Shown: positions 8,099 to 40,540, counted from the stretch's first letter. The stretch is DNA of 42,128 nucleotides from Acholeplasmatales bacterium (GCA_024697825.1 JAILEP010000129.1:1-42128), one strand, 5' to 3'. The notes: generated from the sequence alone by a model not told the origin. Numbers and translations are program-made.

Positions 8099-8125
8099 AG
8101 CGGGCTTAGGTCCGCTTTTTCTTTT
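8099..8125 (+). terminator. Terminator after the isomerase gene
   Basis: AGCGGGC and GTCCGCT pair (one G-U) around TTAG, followed by TTTTCTTTTC. Confidence 0.85.
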
Positions 8126-8178: not shown

Positions 8179-8264
8179 ATAGGAGGATTTGAATATTAGG
8201 GCGATATAAGCCATGAAAATAATTATGGATCATAATCTTATAATGATGATTTCAGATTGAACTT
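8179..8264 (+). pseudogene. Possible decayed copy of the MGGF-type gene start
   Basis: ATAGGAGGATTT at 8179-8190 equals the first 12 bases of the gene at 8305 except for the start codon (ATA for ATG). The same frame continues with NNYGS and SYNDDF but contains stops at 8197 and further on. It sits in the leader of the cluster. It may be a dead duplicate; alternatively AGGAGG here is just a chance ribosome-site match. Confidence 0.22.
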
Positions 8265-8304
8265 ATAATTAAAATTGAAAAATATATTTTAAGGAGAGAT
8301 TTGT

Positions 8305-8967
8305 ATGGGAGGATTTCACGGAGGACATTCAAGTGGTGGAGGCGGAGGCTTCCACGGTGGTCATTCGAGCTCAGGTGGTGGATCAAGTAGAGGTTCATCA
8401 AACGGCGGAGGCAGCTATAATTATACTAAACCAGATAATAGCTATCAAAATAGCTCTGATGAGGAGAGTTATGAAGGTAGACCATTTACACCAGTAGCTG
8501 GAATTATATTTGGTTTACTATTATTTATAATTGCTACTGTTGCAATAGCGAATAATTCAGATGCTGAAGGGTATGTTATTCTAATAATAGCTTTAGTATT
8601 TTATCCATTAAGCCTTATTCTATTTATTTGGGCATTTAGGAAGCTATACAAAGATGGTGTTGCCGCTGAAGAGGCAAAAAAGAAGGCAGAGGCTGAGAAA
8701 AAAGCAGCAGAACAAAGAGCATCTAGAAAGCCTAGAGCAAGAAAGACTACAAAAACTAAATCTAATGTAGATGATGAAAAAACTATAGAGATTCTTCAGC
8801 AGGTAGAGGAAGCTTTAAAAAATGGTGACAATGTCACAATTGAACGTAAAACAACAACTACTAGAACAAAGCTAGTATCTTGTCCTAATTGTAATACAAT
8901 GGTCAACGTTAAGGCTAAATTCTGTCCTAGCTGTGGAGCACAAAATGCTTCATATGAGGATGATTAA
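8305..8967 (+). CDS. MGGFHGGH-headed membrane protein with coiled coil and C-terminal zinc ribbon
   Basis: This 220-residue protein is unrecognised. A Gly/Ser/His head, MGGFHGGHSSGGGGGFHGGH, fills residues 1-40. Two hydrophobic segments follow at about 66-83 and 89-111. A charged Ala/Lys/Glu helix runs from about 116 to 145 and an Arg/Lys/Thr stretch follows. A zinc ribbon (CPNC...CPSCG) lies at about 193-211. There is no signal peptide, so head and tail are probably both cytosolic with a two-pass hairpin membrane anchor. The repeated FHGGH could bind metal. It is the first intact member of a tandem family reaching 11525, with ATG 8971 only three bases past the stop. Function unknown; metal or envelope stress sensing is guesswork. 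Confidence 0.85.
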   Translation: MGGFHGGHSSGGGGGFHGGHSSSGGGSSRGSSNGGGSYNYTKPDNSYQNSSDEESYEGRPFTPVAGIIFGLLLFIIATVAIANNSDAEGYVILIIALVFYPLSLILFIWAFRKLYKDGVAAEEAKKKAEAEKKAAEQRASRKPRARKTTKTKSNVDDEKTIEILQQVEEALKNGDNVTIERKTTTTRTKLVSCPNCNTMVNVKAKFCPSCGAQNASYEDD

Positions 8968-8970
8968 AGA

Positions 8971-9348
8971 ATGGGCGGCTTTAGAGGTGGTCACGATAGT
9001 GGCAGTAGTAGTGGTGGCTTTAGAGGCGGTGCATCAAGTAGCCCACCTAGTACAAATAATGTAAGTCATAGCAGTAGTGGTAGTTCAAGAGGTGTTAGCG
9101 TAAGGCGCCATAAATCTGAAAAATCAAGCTGTAGTAATAATGTAACTCCTACGCCTGATGGATGTGTTATAGTAGGAGTGTTGATTATATTATTTGGTAT
9201 AGTATTCTTTATATTAGCGCTAACTAGTGGCGTTGATGAGGCGATATTATGCTTAATTCCTGTAATAATTGGAATAATTCTAATTATTCTTGGAATTGTT
9301 ACATCAAAAGAAGAAAATAAAAAGAAAAATAAAAGAGAGGTTATTTAA
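8971..9348 (+). CDS. MGGFRGGH-headed two-pass membrane protein without zinc ribbon
   Basis: This 125-residue member of the tandem family has a Gly/Ser-rich head (MGGFRGGHDSGSSSGGFRGG), then basic and Cys-containing linker sequence. Two hydrophobic segments at about 65-85 and 90-110 and a Lys-rich tail end the protein. The zinc ribbon found in its neighbours is absent. The head uses FRGG where neighbours have FHGG. It is separated from the previous stop by three bases and from the next ATG by one base, so the three genes are surely co-transcribed. No function can be assigned. Confidence 0.8.
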   Translation: MGGFRGGHDSGSSSGGFRGGASSSPPSTNNVSHSSSGSSRGVSVRRHKSEKSSCSNNVTPTPDGCVIVGVLIILFGIVFFILALTSGVDEAILCLIPVIIGIILIILGIVTSKEENKKKNKREVI

Positions 9349-9349
9349 T

Positions 9350-10162
9350 ATGGGAGGATTTCACGGAGGACATTCAAGTGGTGGAGGCGGAGGCTTCCAT
9401 GGAGGACATTCAGGAGGCAGCTTTCATAGCCATTCTGGAGGTTCTAGATATCATACAACAATAATTCATACAGGTGGCTATAGCTCATCATATAATCAAT
9501 ATGGACGTAAGAACAGCAAGAAGTCATTTATATCAAGCTTTTTAGGTGGCTTAATAGCGATTGTTGTTGGTATTATTTTATTTATCGCAATTGCAACACC
9601 TAAGACTACATATGCGACTATTACTAGAACAAATACAGTAGGTAGCCGTTACGATATGTATGAGGTATATGATTTTGAATATGAATATAATGGCAAGACA
9701 TATTATGGTTCTGGAGATGATGATTTAAATTCAGATGGCTCATATAATATTAATGTTGGTGAAACATATACACTTTATTTACATGTTTATAGTAATGCTA
9801 GCTATGAATTTGAAAATCAAACTAAGGGCGCTATTATTGTAAGTGCAATCTTTATTCTAATTGGTGGTTTCTTTGTAATCAATACAGTACATCTATATAA
9901 GAAGTATAGAAAGAGACTTGCAGAGGTTGGAGATGCTAATGGCGATGGCGTAGTCAATGAGGAAGATATTGAATATGCTGAAAAGAAGAATTCAGGTAAG
10001 GCTGATGGTGTTTATGATGGTTCACGTGCAGCTACAGCTGATAATACATATGATGAGATGCGAAAGGATCCTAGAAAGGTATGTCCTTATTGTGGATCAT
10101 TTGTTAATCCAACTGACTCATTCTGTCAGAATTGTGGCGGTAGAGTATCTGAGGAAAAGTAA
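9350..10162 (+). CDS. MGGFHGGH-headed DUF3592-like membrane protein with EF-hand-like loop and zinc ribbon
   Basis: The 270-residue protein starts with the same Gly/His head as the gene at 8305; the first 50 bases of the two genes are identical. A membrane segment (about 62-83), a DUF3592-like beta domain (about 85-157), a second membrane segment (162-182), and a loop DANGDGVVNEED (195-206) follow. The loop fits the dockerin/EF-hand calcium pattern. A zinc ribbon CPYCGS...CQNCGG closes the protein (245-263). ATG 9350 is preferred: AGAGAGG lies just upstream and the MGGFHGG head begins here as in the paralogue; an open frame upstream overlaps the previous gene. Confidence 0.85.
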   Translation: MGGFHGGHSSGGGGGFHGGHSGGSFHSHSGGSRYHTTIIHTGGYSSSYNQYGRKNSKKSFISSFLGGLIAIVVGIILFIAIATPKTTYATITRTNTVGSRYDMYEVYDFEYEYNGKTYYGSGDDDLNSDGSYNINVGETYTLYLHVYSNASYEFENQTKGAIIVSAIFILIGGFFVINTVHLYKKYRKRLAEVGDANGDGVVNEEDIEYAEKKNSGKADGVYDGSRAATADNTYDEMRKDPRKVCPYCGSFVNPTDSFCQNCGGRVSEEK

Positions 10163-10187
10163 AAGAGGAGTAATACCTCTTTTTTTA
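10161..10187 (+). terminator. Terminator inside the zinc-ribbon gene cluster
   Basis: AAAAGAGG and CCTCTTTT pair around AGTAATA, then a T run. It starts at the stop codon of the gene ending at 10162. No clear promoter is seen before the next gene, so partial read-through is likely. Confidence 0.75.
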
Positions 10188-10222
10188 CAAGAGTTATAGA
10201 AAATAATTGGGAGAAAAATAAA

Positions 10223-10813
10223 ATGAAAATAGAAATTAGTACAGGAAAACATAACGGCAAAAAGCAAGGCTTTGTTAAGACCATTTTAGCAGAATTATTT
10301 ATTTTATTATTTGGTGTAATATTTTTTGCAATTTCTGCAACACCAATTAAAACTACAGGTGTAGTTACTAGCTATTATGAATCAGGTAGAAATGGTTCAG
10401 CTTCAGATTATCATCATAATGTTAAATTTGAGTATGAGGTATTTGGTATTTCCTTTCTAGGAGAAACAGAGAATGTTCATAGAAGCTATACTGAAGGTGA
10501 AGAGGTAACTGTTTATTGTGGCTTAATTTTAGTAAATGGTTCAGTAAAGAATAATTCTGTTATTGGTACAGTAGTATTATTAGCTTGTACATTTGGTAGT
10601 ATTGCATTAATAATATTTACAGTTAAATCGCATATCCAAAATAAAAAACATCCAAATGATGATGTAGTAATAATGAATACCCCTGTTCAGAAGGAAAATG
10701 CACATGAAGCGACAATAGAAGGACCAACTAAGCGTTGTCCTTATTGTGATTCATTAATAAGCCTTGATGCTAAGCACTGCTCTAGCTGTGGTGCAGACCT
10801 AAGCCAGGATTAA
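10223..10813 (+). CDS. DUF3592-like two-pass membrane protein with C-terminal zinc ribbon
   Basis: The 196-residue protein is a family member without the Gly/His head; it begins with a basic segment. Membrane segment 1 (about 20-40) is followed by KTTGVVTSYYE and a beta-rich domain ending in VTVYCG, typical of DUF3592. Membrane segment 2 lies at about 112-134, and a zinc ribbon CPYCDS...CSSCGADLSQD at the C-terminus. It is a close paralogue of the following gene, sharing KTTG, RSYTEGE and the CPYC/CGADLSQ tail. Ribosome site GGGAGA precedes ATG. Function unknown. Confidence 0.8.
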   Translation: MKIEISTGKHNGKKQGFVKTILAELFILLFGVIFFAISATPIKTTGVVTSYYESGRNGSASDYHHNVKFEYEVFGISFLGETENVHRSYTEGEEVTVYCGLILVNGSVKNNSVIGTVVLLACTFGSIALIIFTVKSHIQNKKHPNDDVVIMNTPVQKENAHEATIEGPTKRCPYCDSLISLDAKHCSSCGADLSQD

Positions 10814-10830
10814 TTGGGGGGAAATTAAAT

Positions 10831-11463
10831 ATGTATGATGAATATGGCTTTGGTGCCAGTGTTAACGGAAAAAGAATAGGTCTTGTTAAAAGTATTCTTG
10901 TAGAATTATTAATATTAGTTATAGGCTTAATTATTTTTGTATTTGTGGCAACACCAGTTAAAACAACTGGTACTGTTCTTGGTTATTACCAATTAGAGCA
11001 GCGTGATGAGGATCATAGAATAATAACGTATTATGAGGTTGCTTATTCCTATACGATTAATGGTAAGGAATATAGAGGTACATCTAAAAATCCTCTTCGT
11101 TCCTATACTGAAGGTGAAAATATAACAGTATATACACGTATACTAGTTCCAAGCAATAGTACAATTTACAATGAAAGTGTTGTAGCGTTTATTATTTTAG
11201 GAGCATGTGGTGGATTTAGCTTAGTTTTAGTATGCTTAACTTTAGTATCATATGGTAAATATAGAAAAATGCTAAAGGAAAGGGAATATGTAGAAAGCGA
11301 CCCAGAAGCATTAGAAAGAAAAAGGCTTGAGGATTTAAGAGCAATGGCAGGCAATACAGAGCTTGCGACAAAGCAATGCCCTTACTGTAATACAATCATT
11401 GGATTATTAGATGATCATTGCCCTAGCTGTGGTGCAGACTTAAGCCAGAATGTTGAGGAATAA
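10831..11463 (+). CDS. DUF3592-like two-pass membrane protein with C-terminal zinc ribbon (paralogue)
   Basis: The 210-residue protein mirrors the gene before it: short basic N-terminus, membrane segment (about 20-40), KTTGTVLGYYQ followed by a beta domain with NGKEYRGTSKNPLRSYTEGE, second membrane segment (about 110-135) and zinc ribbon CPYCNT...CPSCGADLSQN. GGGGGG(A) 11 bases upstream serves as ribosome site. Tandem duplication with the 10223 gene is evident at protein level. Both zinc-ribbon Cys pairs are intact, so it is probably functional. Role unknown. Confidence 0.8.
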   Translation: MYDEYGFGASVNGKRIGLVKSILVELLILVIGLIIFVFVATPVKTTGTVLGYYQLEQRDEDHRIITYYEVAYSYTINGKEYRGTSKNPLRSYTEGENITVYTRILVPSNSTIYNESVVAFIILGACGGFSLVLVCLTLVSYGKYRKMLKEREYVESDPEALERKRLEDLRAMAGNTELATKQCPYCNTIIGLLDDHCPSCGADLSQNVEE

Positions 11464-11465
11464 TA

Positions 11466-11525
11466 ATGGGTGGATTTCACTGTAGTGCATCTAGTGCTGA
11501 GCAGAAGTCTTATTACATTGAATAG
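11466..11525 (+). pseudogene. 19-codon MGGFH remnant closing the paralogue cluster
   Basis: ATG 11466, two bases past the preceding stop, opens MGGFHCSASSAEQKSYYIE and then TAG. The start repeats the family head (MGGFH), but the protein ends at once. A terminator follows. It looks like the truncated 5' end of another family member; expression as a microprotein cannot be excluded. Confidence 0.5.
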
Positions 11526-11529
11526 CAAT

Positions 11530-11560
11530 AAAGGAGAGTCAGTCTCCTTTTTGTTTTTTT
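11530..11560 (+). terminator. Terminator of the zinc-ribbon gene cluster
   Basis: AAAGGAGA and TCTCCTTT pair perfectly around GTCAG, followed by TTGTTTTTTT. Confidence 0.9.
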
Positions 11561-11581: not shown

Positions 11582-11610
11582 TTGCAAATTTGACGGTTTC
11601 GTCATATAAT
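11582..11610 (+). promoter_or_regulatory. rpoBC promoter P1 with an internal palindrome
   Basis: TTGCAA (11582-11587), 17-base spacer, TATAAT (11605-11610). The spacer holds the inverted repeat TGACG-GTTT-CGTCA (11591-11604), which ends exactly at the -10. Its place suggests a repressor or activator site on the RNA polymerase operon. The regulator is unknown. Confidence 0.7.
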
Positions 11611-11652
11611 ACTAAAATGCGTATAGTGGCATTACGCCCTTTTTATGCTGAC

Positions 11653-11680
11653 TTGAATTTACCTATAATATTTATATTAT
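11653..11680 (+). promoter_or_regulatory. Possible second rpoBC promoter P2
   Basis: TTGAAT (11653-11658), 16-base spacer, TATTAT (11675-11680). It is weaker than P1 and in AT-rich sequence, so tentative. Confidence 0.35.
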
Positions 11681-11718
11681 AGTTAATTATATATTTGTGG
11701 TTATCCCAATAAAAGGTA

Positions 11719-11746
11719 GGGCACCCTTAAAGTCTTAAGACAGCCC
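11719..11746 (+). promoter_or_regulatory. Hairpin in the rpoB leader
   Basis: GGGC (11719) pairs with GCCC (11743), and inside it CTTAA pairs with TTAAG around AGTC. It lies about 50 bases before ATG in a leader of 110-180 bases. No U run follows, so it is not a terminator; it could bind a protein or stabilise the mRNA. Confidence 0.35.
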
Positions 11747-11795
11747 GAAAATATTGTGAAAGGGAAAATTGTATTAATTTACAAAAGGTGATTTT

Positions 11796-22323: not shown

Positions 22324-23016
22324 ATGAAGAGAGGAAAGAAGTACGTTGAAGCTGCTAAGTTAGTTGATAAGACTAAGGCATACGCTGCAAGCGAAGCATT
22401 AGATTTAGCAATTAAGACTTCAACATCAAAGTTTGACGCATCAGTTGACGTTGTATTCCGCTTAAATATCGACCCACGTAAGGCTGAACAGAATATTCGT
22501 GGTGCTATCGTATTACCTAACGGTACAGGTAAGACTCAGAAGGTCTTAGTTATTTGCCGTGGTGCTAAGCAGGCTGAAGCAACTGAAGCAGGCGCTGATT
22601 ACGTTGGAGAAGCAGAAATTATCAATAAGATTCAGCAGGGCTGGTTTGATTTCGATGTTATCGTAGCTACACCAGATATGATGGGTCAGTTAGGTAGATT
22701 AGGTAGAATCCTAGGACCTAAGGGCTTAATGCCAAACCCTAAGACTGGTACAGTAACTATGGATGTTGCTAAGGCAGTTAAGGAAATCAAGGCAGGTAAG
22801 GTTGAATACCGTCCTGATAAGGTTGGTAACATTCAGTTACCTATCGGTAAGGTATCATTCGGTGCTGAAAAGCTTCAGGAGAACTTAAAGGCTGTTTATG
22901 ATGTAATTATGAAGGTTAAGCCTTCAACTATTAAGGGAGCATACATTAAGAATGTTTCTGTTGCATCTACAATGGGTCCTGGAGTTAAGGTTGATTCAGA
23001 AACAATCAGCAAGTAA
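22324..23016 (+). CDS. rplA: 50S ribosomal protein L1
   Basis: The 230-residue protein has family length. It has the conserved [51 protein letters not shown] (cited in parts) and [22 protein letters not shown] segments. It forms the L1 stalk of the large subunit and in many bacteria represses its own mRNA. AGGAGG lies directly upstream. Two RNA structures resembling an L1 site flank rplK, fitting autoregulation. Confidence 0.98.
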
Positions 23017-23028
23017 TTATTAAAAATT

Positions 23029-23090
23029 TGGCCTAAGACAGTAGGCGAGCGAAAGCTCTTAATTTCCTACCGAGGAATTGATTTGGATTT
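23029..23090 (+). promoter_or_regulatory. L10(L12)4-binding leader of rplJL
   Basis: The leader reads CCTAAGACA then stem GTAGG (23041-23045)/CCTAC (23066-23070) enclosing GAGC-GAAA-GCTC, then CGAGGAATTGA. This is the recognisable Firmicutes L10 leader, where the L10-L12 complex binds to turn down its own synthesis. CTACCGAGG (23067-23075) can pair with the loop of the terminator downstream. Confidence 0.85.
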
Positions 23091-23092
23091 AT

Positions 23093-23128
23093 AAAATCCT
23101 TCTTTGCCTTGGTAGAGAAGGATTTTTT
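23093..23128 (+). terminator. Attenuator terminator in the rplJ leader
   Basis: AAAATCCTTCT and AGAAGGATTTT form an 11-base stem, then TTTTTT. Its 12-base loop contains CCTTGGTAG (23107-23115), complementary over nine positions (one G-U) to CTACCGAGG in the L10 leader. This offers a switch between the two folds. Confidence 0.88.
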
Positions 23129-23153
23129 CATTTTACAAAATGGAGGTGTCAAA

Positions 23154-37825: not shown

Positions 37826-40540
37826 ATGAAATTAAAGGGTTTAGCAGTAACAGCATTAGCAGCAATGACAATGGTAATGGCAAGCTGTGGAGCAAAGGCT
37901 ACAAGCAGTGCGGGAAACACTACTTCAAAGTCTGGTTCTTCAGAATTGGTTTCAGTAGGTACTAGTAGTGTGGGAGCTTCTAGTAATAACGGAGAGGGCG
38001 CACCTACTGAATCAAGTAAAGCAGCATCAAGCGCTGTAACATCATCTGCCGCAGCAGTATCATCAAGTGCAGCAGTATCAAGCAGTGCCGCAGCAGCATC
38101 AAGTGCAGCCAAAAGCTCATCTGCCGCAGCAGCATCAAGCGCAGCCAAAAGCTCATCTGCCGCAGCATCTAGTATAGTGTCATCTTCAGCAGCAAAGAGC
38201 TCAAGTGCCGCAGCATCAAGTGCAGTAGCATCAAGTGCCGCTGCATCAAGCGCAGCAGCATCTTCAAGTGTTGCAAGCTCAAGTAAGGCTTCAAGCAGTG
38301 CCGCATCAAGCAGTGCCGCAGCTTCATCAAGCTCAAGTGCAGTTCCAGCTGTAATTGATAATACAGAGGCTACATTAGTACTTAATGCAGTAGGTGGAGA
38401 TCAGGAATCTTTATATGCAGAATTCGCAGCAGTAACAGATGCAGATTCATATAATGCATATTATAAGAAGGATGGCGCAACTACTTGGACTAAGATTGAT
38501 GATCCATTAATTAGATTATATAAGAAGAATGGCGATTATTATTACCGTGTAGACGCAGTAGGTCTATCTGCTGGTGTTTATTCATTAAAGATTAACCCAG
38601 TATTCAATGGTACTGAGGATGAATCTAAGGGTAATTCAGCTTCATCTATTACAACAATTGCTTATGATAGATCAGGCTTTGCGTTCTCTACAAATTCACC
38701 TTTAAAGGGTGCAGCACCTGGTGCATATAATCTTGATGGTACATTAAAGGATGGCGCACAGGTTATTTATGTTACTGAAAGCAATAAGACTACAGTAACT
38801 GCAACAGTAGCAGGTACTGAATATACAGGCGTTGCCGCAATTACAGCAGCAATTAAAGCAAAGAAGACTACAACACCTTATGCAATTAGATTTATTGGTA
38901 AGGTTACATCAAGTGGTTTAATTTGTGACGATTTATCTAAGTGGTACGCAGTTGGTGTTAAGGAAGCAACTAACCTAACAATTGAGGGTATCGGTGATGA
39001 CGCAACATTACATGGAGTTGGTGTTGGCTTCAATAAGTGTACATCAGTAGAATGTAGAAACCTTGGTTTAATGAACTGGGGTGGTGGAGGCGATGGCGAT
39101 GGTATCGCTATGCAGGGAACTGTTAACGCATGGATCCACGATAATGATGTATTCTATGGTGATGCTGGTAGCGATGGCGACCAGGCTAAGGGCGATGGCT
39201 CTATGGACTTAAAGGATGATTCACAGTATGTAACTGTATCATATATGCATTTCTGGGATTCAGGTAAGATGTCTCTATGTGGTATGAAGAGTGAATCAGG
39301 TCCAAATTATATTACATATCATCATAACTGGTTTGACCATTCTGATTCAAGACATCCAAGAATTAGAACAATGTCAGTTCATGTTTATAATAATTACTTT
39401 GATGGTAATTCAAAATATGGTGTAGGTGTAACAACTGGTGCAGACGCATTTGTTGAAAACAACTACTTTAGAAATTGTAAGGACCCAATGCTATCAAGTG
39501 GTACTGGTACAGATGCCCTAGGTGATGGTACATTCAGTGGTGAATCTGCTGGTACAATCAAGGCATTCAATAATACAATTATTTGGGAAGGCTCAATGGC
39601 TGGTTATTCAAATAATTTAATTTATGCAAATGCAGCTCAGGGTACTAATGCAGCAAATGCATCTTCATATGATGCAGTATTAGTTTCTTCAAGAACAGAA
39701 ACTGTAGATTCTTCATATGCAGCAGGTGGTGCAACTTATAATAATTTTGATACAACTGTAGATTTAGGTGTAGCAGTAGCTACAATCCAAACTCCAGAGG
39801 ATTCAAAGAATACAGTTCAGGCTTATGCAGGTAGAATTAATGGTGGCGACTTCCAGTGGACATTTGATAATTCTACAGATGATACATCATATGCATTAAA
39901 TACAAATTTAAAGACTGCAATTAATAATTATTCATCTAATTTAATTTCAGTTCAGGGTATTGGTACTCAGTCATCTGGTTCAGATTCTGGTTCTGGTGAT
40001 AGTGGTTCAACTACTACAACTGTAACTTATACAGAAGTAATCGCATTAATTGATGCATTACCTTCAACTATTACAGCATCTGATAAGACTGCAATTGCAG
40101 CAGCAAGAACAGCTTATGATTCTCTATCTACAGATGATAAGGCTTTAGTTACAAATTATTCTAAGCTTACAGCAGCAGAGGCAGCTTTAGCAGCATTACC
40201 TCAGGAATCTGAAATATTAACATTTAATACAGGCAAAGCTGGAGATAATGATTTCTTCACAGTAAGTGGTAATTTAAAGAGTGATGTAGCATCAAAGACA
40301 TACGATGGTGTAACTTACACAACTGCTTTAAAGATGGAATCAGCTACATCTATTACATTTACAACAACAGCATCAACAACAATTACAATTATTACTGATA
40401 CTGCATCAAAGAAAATCAAGATTGATGATACTAAGTATACAACTGACGCTAATGGTGTATATACAATGACATTAGCTGCAGGACCACATACAATCATTAA
40501 GGGTGATTCAATGAATGTGTATGCAATTATTATTGAATAA
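37826..40540 (+). CDS. Surface lipoprotein pectate lyase (PL1-type, multidomain)
   Basis: The 904-residue protein is a lipoprotein (MASC lipobox, Cys21). A Ser/Ala linker follows at about 30-172. A beta-sandwich of FN3 type lies at about 178-276 and a PL1 beta-helix lyase at about 310-600. Lyase motifs are WIHDNDVF (Trp436), DGSMDLKDDSQYVTVSY (Asp457, Asp461), DHSDSRHPRIR with candidate catalytic Arg509, and VYNNYF. Two further modules close it: a helical segment (about 735-795, IALIDALP...DKALV) and a C-terminal beta domain (about 797-904). It should cleave polygalacturonate by beta-elimination at the cell surface. AGGAGA precedes ATG. A cre-like operator overlaps the start of transcription. 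Confidence 0.92.
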   Translation: MKLKGLAVTALAAMTMVMASCGAKATSSAGNTTSKSGSSELVSVGTSSVGASSNNGEGAPTESSKAASSAVTSSAAAVSSSAAVSSSAAAASSAAKSSSAAAASSAAKSSSAAASSIVSSSAAKSSSAAASSAVASSAAASSAAASSSVASSSKASSSAASSSAAASSSSSAVPAVIDNTEATLVLNAVGGDQESLYAEFAAVTDADSYNAYYKKDGATTWTKIDDPLIRLYKKNGDYYYRVDAVGLSAGVYSLKINPVFNGTEDESKGNSASSITTIAYDRSGFAFSTNSPLKGAAPGAYNLDGTLKDGAQVIYVTESNKTTVTATVAGTEYTGVAAITAAIKAKKTTTPYAIRFIGKVTSSGLICDDLSKWYAVGVKEATNLTIEGIGDDATLHGVGVGFNKCTSVECRNLGLMNWGGGGDGDGIAMQGTVNAWIHDNDVFYGDAGSDGDQAKGDGSMDLKDDSQYVTVSYMHFWDSGKMSLCGMKSESGPNYITYHHNWFDHSDSRHPRIRTMSVHVYNNYFDGNSKYGVGVTTGADAFVENNYFRNCKDPMLSSGTGTDALGDGTFSGESAGTIKAFNNTIIWEGSMAGYSNNLIYANAAQGTNAANASSYDAVLVSSRTETVDSSYAAGGATYNNFDTTVDLGVAVATIQTPEDSKNTVQAYAGRINGGDFQWTFDNSTDDTSYALNTNLKTAINNYSSNLISVQGIGTQSSGSDSGSGDSGSTTTTVTYTEVIALIDALPSTITASDKTAIAAARTAYDSLSTDDKALVTNYSKLTAAEAALAALPQESEILTFNTGKAGDNDFFTVSGNLKSDVASKTYDGVTYTTALKMESATSITFTTTASTTITIITDTASKKIKIDDTKYTTDANGVYTMTLAAGPHTIIKGDSMNVYAIIIE
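38087..38158 (+). repeat. 36-base tandem repeat in the Ser/Ala linker
   Basis: 38087-38122 and 38123-38158 are identical but for one base (T38103 against C38139) and encode the 12-residue unit AAASSAAKSSSA. Shorter AGTGCCGCAGC units surround them. Such in-frame repeats can change linker length by slippage without shifting frame. Confidence 0.85.

Follow-up and report, generated by a model that had tools for sequence, protein, structure and literature searches.

A tandem family of modular two-pass membrane proteins with Gly/His heads, DUF3592-like domains and zinc ribbons in an Acholeplasmatales bacterium

Membrane proteins that combine zinc ribbons with low-complexity segments have been described in Bacillus, in the ydjFGHL and PspA-type systems (PMC11237479). 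A different arrangement, with a small beta domain between two transmembrane helices, is found in the two-pass proteins of the DUF3592 family (PF12158), including those of giant viruses and phages. The locus analyzed here, in a 42,128-nucleotide stretch of DNA from an Acholeplasmatales bacterium (GCA_024697825.1, JAILEP010000129.1; hereafter, the window), encodes a tandem protein family that resembles both. With the ydjFGHL and PspA-type systems it shares the zinc ribbon and low-complexity combination in membrane proteins, but its extracytoplasmic domain is different, and no PspA, band-7 or TPM neighbor was recognized among the window ORFs or in the congener neighborhoods that were read. With the DUF3592 proteins it shares the two helices and the small beta domain, to which it adds a Gly/His head, an EF loop and a zinc ribbon, all predicted to be cytoplasmic. 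The DxNxDGxxxxxD loop is also common to dockerins and EF-hand proteins; the family, however, has one loop per unit, probably on the cytoplasmic side, and no cohesin was seen. The beta subunits of BK channels likewise have both ends inside and a beta-rich outer loop but show no sequence relation to the family, and the structural alignments with them (best Z 7.4, rmsd 4.8, 80 aligned; also 6.8) are in the range of unrelated common arrangements.

Searches of Pfam, NCBIfam, PADLOC, PHROGs, structures and the literature bear out the sequence-only reading of this DNA, which could match the array to no described system. The hits in the four databases were rejected as involving the ribbon, a hydrophobic stretch or low complexity only; thus, gene 2 scores above the cut-off of the chlamydial cysteine-rich protein model CRPA, a match that runs along the two hydrophobic helices only and was dismissed. 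In the papers searched, DUF3592 is mentioned once, in an unrelated context. What is new is a lineage-specific architecture put together from domains already known; it does not amount to a new class of system. The most economical model, to which we assign a probability of roughly 0.3, is that these fast-evolving, genus-restricted two-pass proteins, expanded locally, form a submembrane metal-dependent scaffold held together by their heads and metal-binding tails; three other explanations, weighed below, are each nearly as likely.

Modules and layout of the array

Read from sequence, the tandem family consists of five intact ORFs (8305–11463), as had been proposed, and one vestigial head (11466–11525; Table 1). 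Also as proposed, heads are seen on genes 1–3 and at 11466, two hydrophobic helices are present in 5/5 genes, and the CxxC-x(10)-CxxC pattern occurs in genes 1, 3, 4 and 5, gene 2 being without it. The C4 zinc ribbon models (PF13240/PF13248) are passed by genes 1 and 4; in genes 3 and 5, the Cys4 pattern scores below the cut-off. The DUF3592-like domain attributed to genes 3–5 reaches 27.3 bits in gene 5, against a Pfam gathering score of 25.3, and falls below the cut-off in gene 4 (14.6 bits) and gene 3 (no Pfam hit), both of which sequence comparison shows to be homologs of gene 5. With its full set of modules, gene 3 represents the canonical form, of which genes 1, 2, 4 and 5 are module-reduced relatives.

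Two relics had been claimed as well, of which one stands. The downstream relic is a credible vestigial head because, within the window, ATGGGNGGNTTYCAY is limited to the heads of genes 1 and 3 (8305 and 9350) and the ORF at 11466, and is found in 0/60 shuffled windows. The upstream relic, near 8179, finds no support, its best match to the cluster scoring 24 against a shuffle mean of 26 (p 0.82); the ATAGGAGGATTT string at this position looks like a ribosome-binding-site-like string in a 5′ leader. Three features had been overlooked, namely the EF-hand/dockerin-type loop in gene 3 (residues 195–207, PS00018 pattern), the hairpin at 10161–10183 and the single-copy relatives in congeners.

The modules missing from genes 1, 2, 4 and 5 and the vestigial head left at 11466 could indicate a decaying array of duplicates under weak selection, with gene 3 alone functional. 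We consider this improbable given that all five reading frames are intact, with no internal stops, and that genes 4 and 5 retain their ribbons and helices despite differing from each other at about 61% of residues.

Terminator-like hairpins are located 3′ of rpiB, of gene 3 and of the vestigial head, and their positions suggest that genes 1–3 and genes 4–5 may form two transcription units. Promoter-like sites do not exceed their frequency in shuffles.

Table 1. Coordinates of the features of the array in the window
Feature	Coordinates	Strand	Modules and evidence
Terminator of upstream rpiB-like gene	8099..8116	+	Left boundary of putative inserted cassette; rpoB right after rpiB in G024, G003 and G006
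Gene 1	8305..8967	+	Gly/His head, two-helix hairpin, Lys/Arg/Ala-rich linker, zinc ribbon; without DUF3592
Gene 1 head	8305..8367	+	60/63 nt as in gene 3 head; identity begins at ATG-1
Gene 1 zinc ribbon CPNC-x10-CPSC	8881..8934	+	Motif/profile
Gene 2	8971..9348	+	Head (GGFRGGH variant) and two-helix hairpin only; without ribbon
Gene 3, canonical member	9350..10162	+	Head, TM, DUF3592-like, TM, EF loop, zinc ribbon
Gene 3 head, conserved first 22 residues	9350..9415	+	Two GGFHGGHS repeats
Gene 3 transmembrane helix 1	9539..9595	+	
Gene 3 DUF3592-like beta domain, predicted extracytoplasmic	9596..9832	+	Conserved YExYDFEY...GxGDDDL
Gene 3 transmembrane helix 2	9833..9889	+	
Gene 3 EF-hand/dockerin-type loop DANGDGVVNEEDI	9932..9970	+	PROSITE PS00018 pattern
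Gene 3 zinc ribbon CPYC-x10-CQNC	10082..10135	+	
Intrinsic-terminator-like hairpin	10161..10183	+ (one scan: - strand)	Boundary of genes 1–3 and genes 4–5; fold z -3.9
Gene 4, headless	10223..10813	+	TM, DUF3592-like, TM, zinc ribbon
Gene 4 zinc ribbon	10736..10789	+	Zn_ribbon_3 above cut-off
Gene 5, headless	10831..11463	+	TM, DUF3592 (above Pfam cut-off), TM, zinc ribbon
Gene 5 zinc ribbon	11377..11430	+	
Vestigial head MGGFHCSASSAEQKSYYIE	11466..11525	+	19-codon ORF starting MGGFH, right behind gene 5
Terminator closing cassette	11530..11550	+	Terminator-like hairpin

The sequences flanking the helices toward the N- and C-termini are basic, and that of the outer loop is acidic; by the positive-inside rule, we infer that both ends of the canonical protein are cytoplasmic and that the DUF3592-like domain is outside. 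The AlphaFold2 model of gene 3 (pLDDT 82.5) comprises a helix, four strands, a second helix, a helical linker and small strands. The two-pass DUF3592 module is supported by the gene 5 model (pLDDT 79.7), which matches viral models including DUF3592-annotated giant-virus proteins (E down to about 1e-6). None of the matches of the two models to solved structures informs function: for gene 3, Foldseek against the PDB gave no match with E ≤ 0.001, and the structural matches to OB-like domains, at Z 5–6, are uninformative.

The PS00018 loop is present in gene 3 and in ten sequences of nine relatives (0.05–0.25% in shuffles); all other ORFs tested lack it, save longer readings of the same genes. In a comparison of the family profile with solved structures, dockerin chains are the best sequence matches, at the position of the EF loop (best E 0.0013); the fused G022a relative passes the Pfam Dockerin_1 cut-off, and weak Dockerin_1 scores are found in 2/8 members. 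A type I dockerin needs two paired calcium repeats, and gene 3 has one loop. The pattern search found no EF loop in genes 1, 2, 4 and 5 or in G033a, which means that not all members can depend on calcium. Although the sequences change rapidly, most members retain the four cysteines and the EF loop. Ribbons of the C4 type and EF loops generally suggest binding of zinc and calcium, here in the cytoplasm, and, with these two putative metal-binding motifs, the idea of a metal-responsive or membrane-scaffold system put forward for the array is compatible with the data. A single EF loop on the predicted cytoplasmic side is unusual for dockerin-like loops, which counts against the scaffold model.

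Elsewhere in the window, the 5′ leader of rpoB (11600–11790) shows conservation across four congeners, in ATATATTTGTGGTNATCC and AAAGTC..GACAG. It has compensatory changes in 7/27 predicted pairs and no match to Rfam at the gathering score, and is a candidate cis-regulatory RNA. An L10 leader RNA (RF00557, 85 bits; 23014–23137) lies 5′ of an rplJ-like gene, rpoB being located, in this genome, ~10 kb from, and upstream of, the rplKAJL genes. The translation of 37826–40540 reads as a large and apparently secreted protein in which a very long linker, rich in Ser and Ala, precedes a pectate-lyase-like region.

Conservation of the head and divergence of the body

In three pairs of congeners, residues 1–22 of the head are identical at 19/21, 19/22 and 20/22 positions (86–91%), compared with 26–47% for the helices, 44–60% for the outer part and 43–53% for the protein minus the head. 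Another aligner setting gives head identities of 77 to 91% in six pairs, i.e., the conservation is strong, not absolute. Among ten members, the third bases of the Gly codons within the first nine head codons differ in 0.54 of comparisons, against 0.52 expected at saturation, so that constraint acts on the protein. By these measures, the head is under selection, and no other part of the protein is as well conserved; the suspicion that it is low-complexity noise fails, conservation among relatives peaking precisely there.

Outside this family, the motif GGFxGGHxxG scarcely occurs in the class: a search of 395 class genomes found it elsewhere only in one unrelated Gly/His-headed membrane protein (L065) and in one match in G300. 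L065 (1465–2478), from a distant class member (G376), is a 338-aa membrane protein with a similar Gly/Ser/His head before the first helix and an unrelated body. The congener G026 encodes a two-helix protein (L048, 844–1830) whose Gly/His head is of another kind (MPHAGGGSNSGGFHSGSS) and whose outer domain is large.

In the eight core members, His8 and His20 of the head are invariant, and the Gly and Phe positions equally so. At position 5, some members have Gly, Arg or Tyr in place of His, a variation that makes a strict metal site less convincing. The head could instead be a sticky GGF-type low-complexity segment, in which the spacing of Gly, Phe and His drives clustering or the binding of one partner without metal, the ribbon and the EF loop being structural. 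The invariance of Gly and Phe alongside His, the variable His5 and the occurrence of such a head before a membrane helix in the otherwise unrelated L065 all fit this explanation, but it leaves aside the invariance of His8 and His20 and the retention of the Cys4 and EF residues in most members, and we hold it to be rather doubtful.

The body is, as far as the sequence comparisons go, evolving much faster than the neighboring genes. Between G008 and G009, the neighbors are 86–100% identical (dS 0.29–0.79) and the core gene 48% (dN 0.46, dS 1.38); between G003 and G025, the respective values are 73–95% (dS 0.46–1.10) and 55% (dN 0.39, dS 0.91). Over both pairs, the dN of the core gene is thus 0.39–0.46 vs 0.003–0.18 in the neighbors, values that are to be read with the caveat that alignment error at such divergence inflates both dN and dS. 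In G003/G025, dN is elevated at an ordinary dS; in G008/G009, dS is elevated as well, so that allele replacement is possible there.

Distribution, genomic sites and origin of the array

The core gene, either as such or in a divergent or fused form, is present in 9/27 genomes of the genus (the window's own and eight congeners) and was not found in the other 18, which makes its role dispensable. The sister genus genome G033 also carries the family, bringing the genomes with a headed member to ten in all. Scanning some 85,000 species genomes recovered eight loci only, all on congener or sister-genus contigs already known, and the class and phylum genome samples contain no additional full-length relative. 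The contigs of the relatives are labeled as Acholeplasmatales or Bacillales MAGs, one of them from goat reticulum. A viral origin was rejected, no relative having been found among viral contigs.

The sites differ among genomes. Going by gene names read from translations, the family is encoded beside rpiB (G000, G008, G009; a single adjoining core gene in the latter two), between pyk and nadA (G003, G025), before rpsB (G017), by ispG (G013), by a malic-enzyme-like gene (G022) and by a mutS2-like gene (G033), and a survey of these neighborhoods found no partner gene conserved across them. In the window, the cassette is preceded by the rpiB terminator and followed by the rpoB leader; given that in G024, G003 and G006 rpiB is directly followed by rpoB, the cassette looks like an insertion between the two genes.

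Module shuffling and tandem expansion, inferred originally from the array itself, recur in congeners: G022 and G033 have tandem pairs of a headless and a headed member, and G022a is a fused double unit. Gene 3 is closest to the G017 member (49% identity minus the head), and the tree places genes 4 and 5 together (support 100/98) and joins a headless gene of G033 to them less firmly, so that at least two old lineages are combined in the array. The weakly supported tree gives no clear single origin of the headless members. Genes 1 and 3 share 60/63 nt from one base before the ATG, the identity ending after about 21 codons, and their bodies beyond the head are unrelated apart from the zinc ribbon, which suggests that only the head was copied, and recently, between the two genes.

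The patchy presence in the genus, the location at no fewer than six different genomic sites, the tandem arrays, the copying of a head between genes 1 and 3 and the divergence of the body relative to its neighbors (48–55% vs 73–100% identity, with raised dN) would all fit a diversifying protein of conflict or of the cell surface, acting in immunity, toward phages or in competition between strains, whose gene spreads, relocates and multiplies by duplication, the array serving as a reservoir of variants. However, the outer domain is not the fastest part, the helices being more variable, there is no hit to a defense family, no toxin or phage genes were recognized alongside, and none of the relatives is in a viral contig; hence we rate this explanation as improbable, too.

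Proposed role and cell-wall setting

Under the scaffold model, the two membrane helices would pin the protein to the membrane, and the outer DUF3592 domain would touch or sense the surface of a probably wall-less cell. The unstructured GGFxGGH head and the metal-binding tail might then hold copies of the protein, or a partner, together in a metal-dependent manner (zinc, perhaps calcium). The expansion would supply different subunits, i.e., a head without the outer domain (genes 1 and 2) and the outer domain without a head (genes 4 and 5), and such differing paralogs could assemble as in a hetero-oligomer.

Within the genus, mraY is present in 5/27 genomes (G007, G014, G016, G020, G021). The window's genome lacks mraY, so this gut bacterium is probably wall-less, mraY being the sole marker behind this reading; the pattern suggests that the cell wall is being lost within one genus. 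Tenericutes have been described as wall-less, and the loss of peptidoglycan synthesis has been proposed in gut lineages (PMC7301438). The family is present in 0/5 mraY-positive vs 9/22 other species (Fisher p 0.14, not significant, with species that are not independent), so that a link between its presence and mraY is suggestive only.

As a long shot, we propose that the GGFxGGH head might be the interaction code of a modular metal-gated membrane lattice that arose in wall-less members of the genus, with the tandem genes supplying its different subunits, which would partly replace wall-based surface organization. In this family, the part of lowest complexity is the most conserved, against the usual expectation of noise, and the genus offers a setting in which to see which membrane proteins appear once the wall goes.
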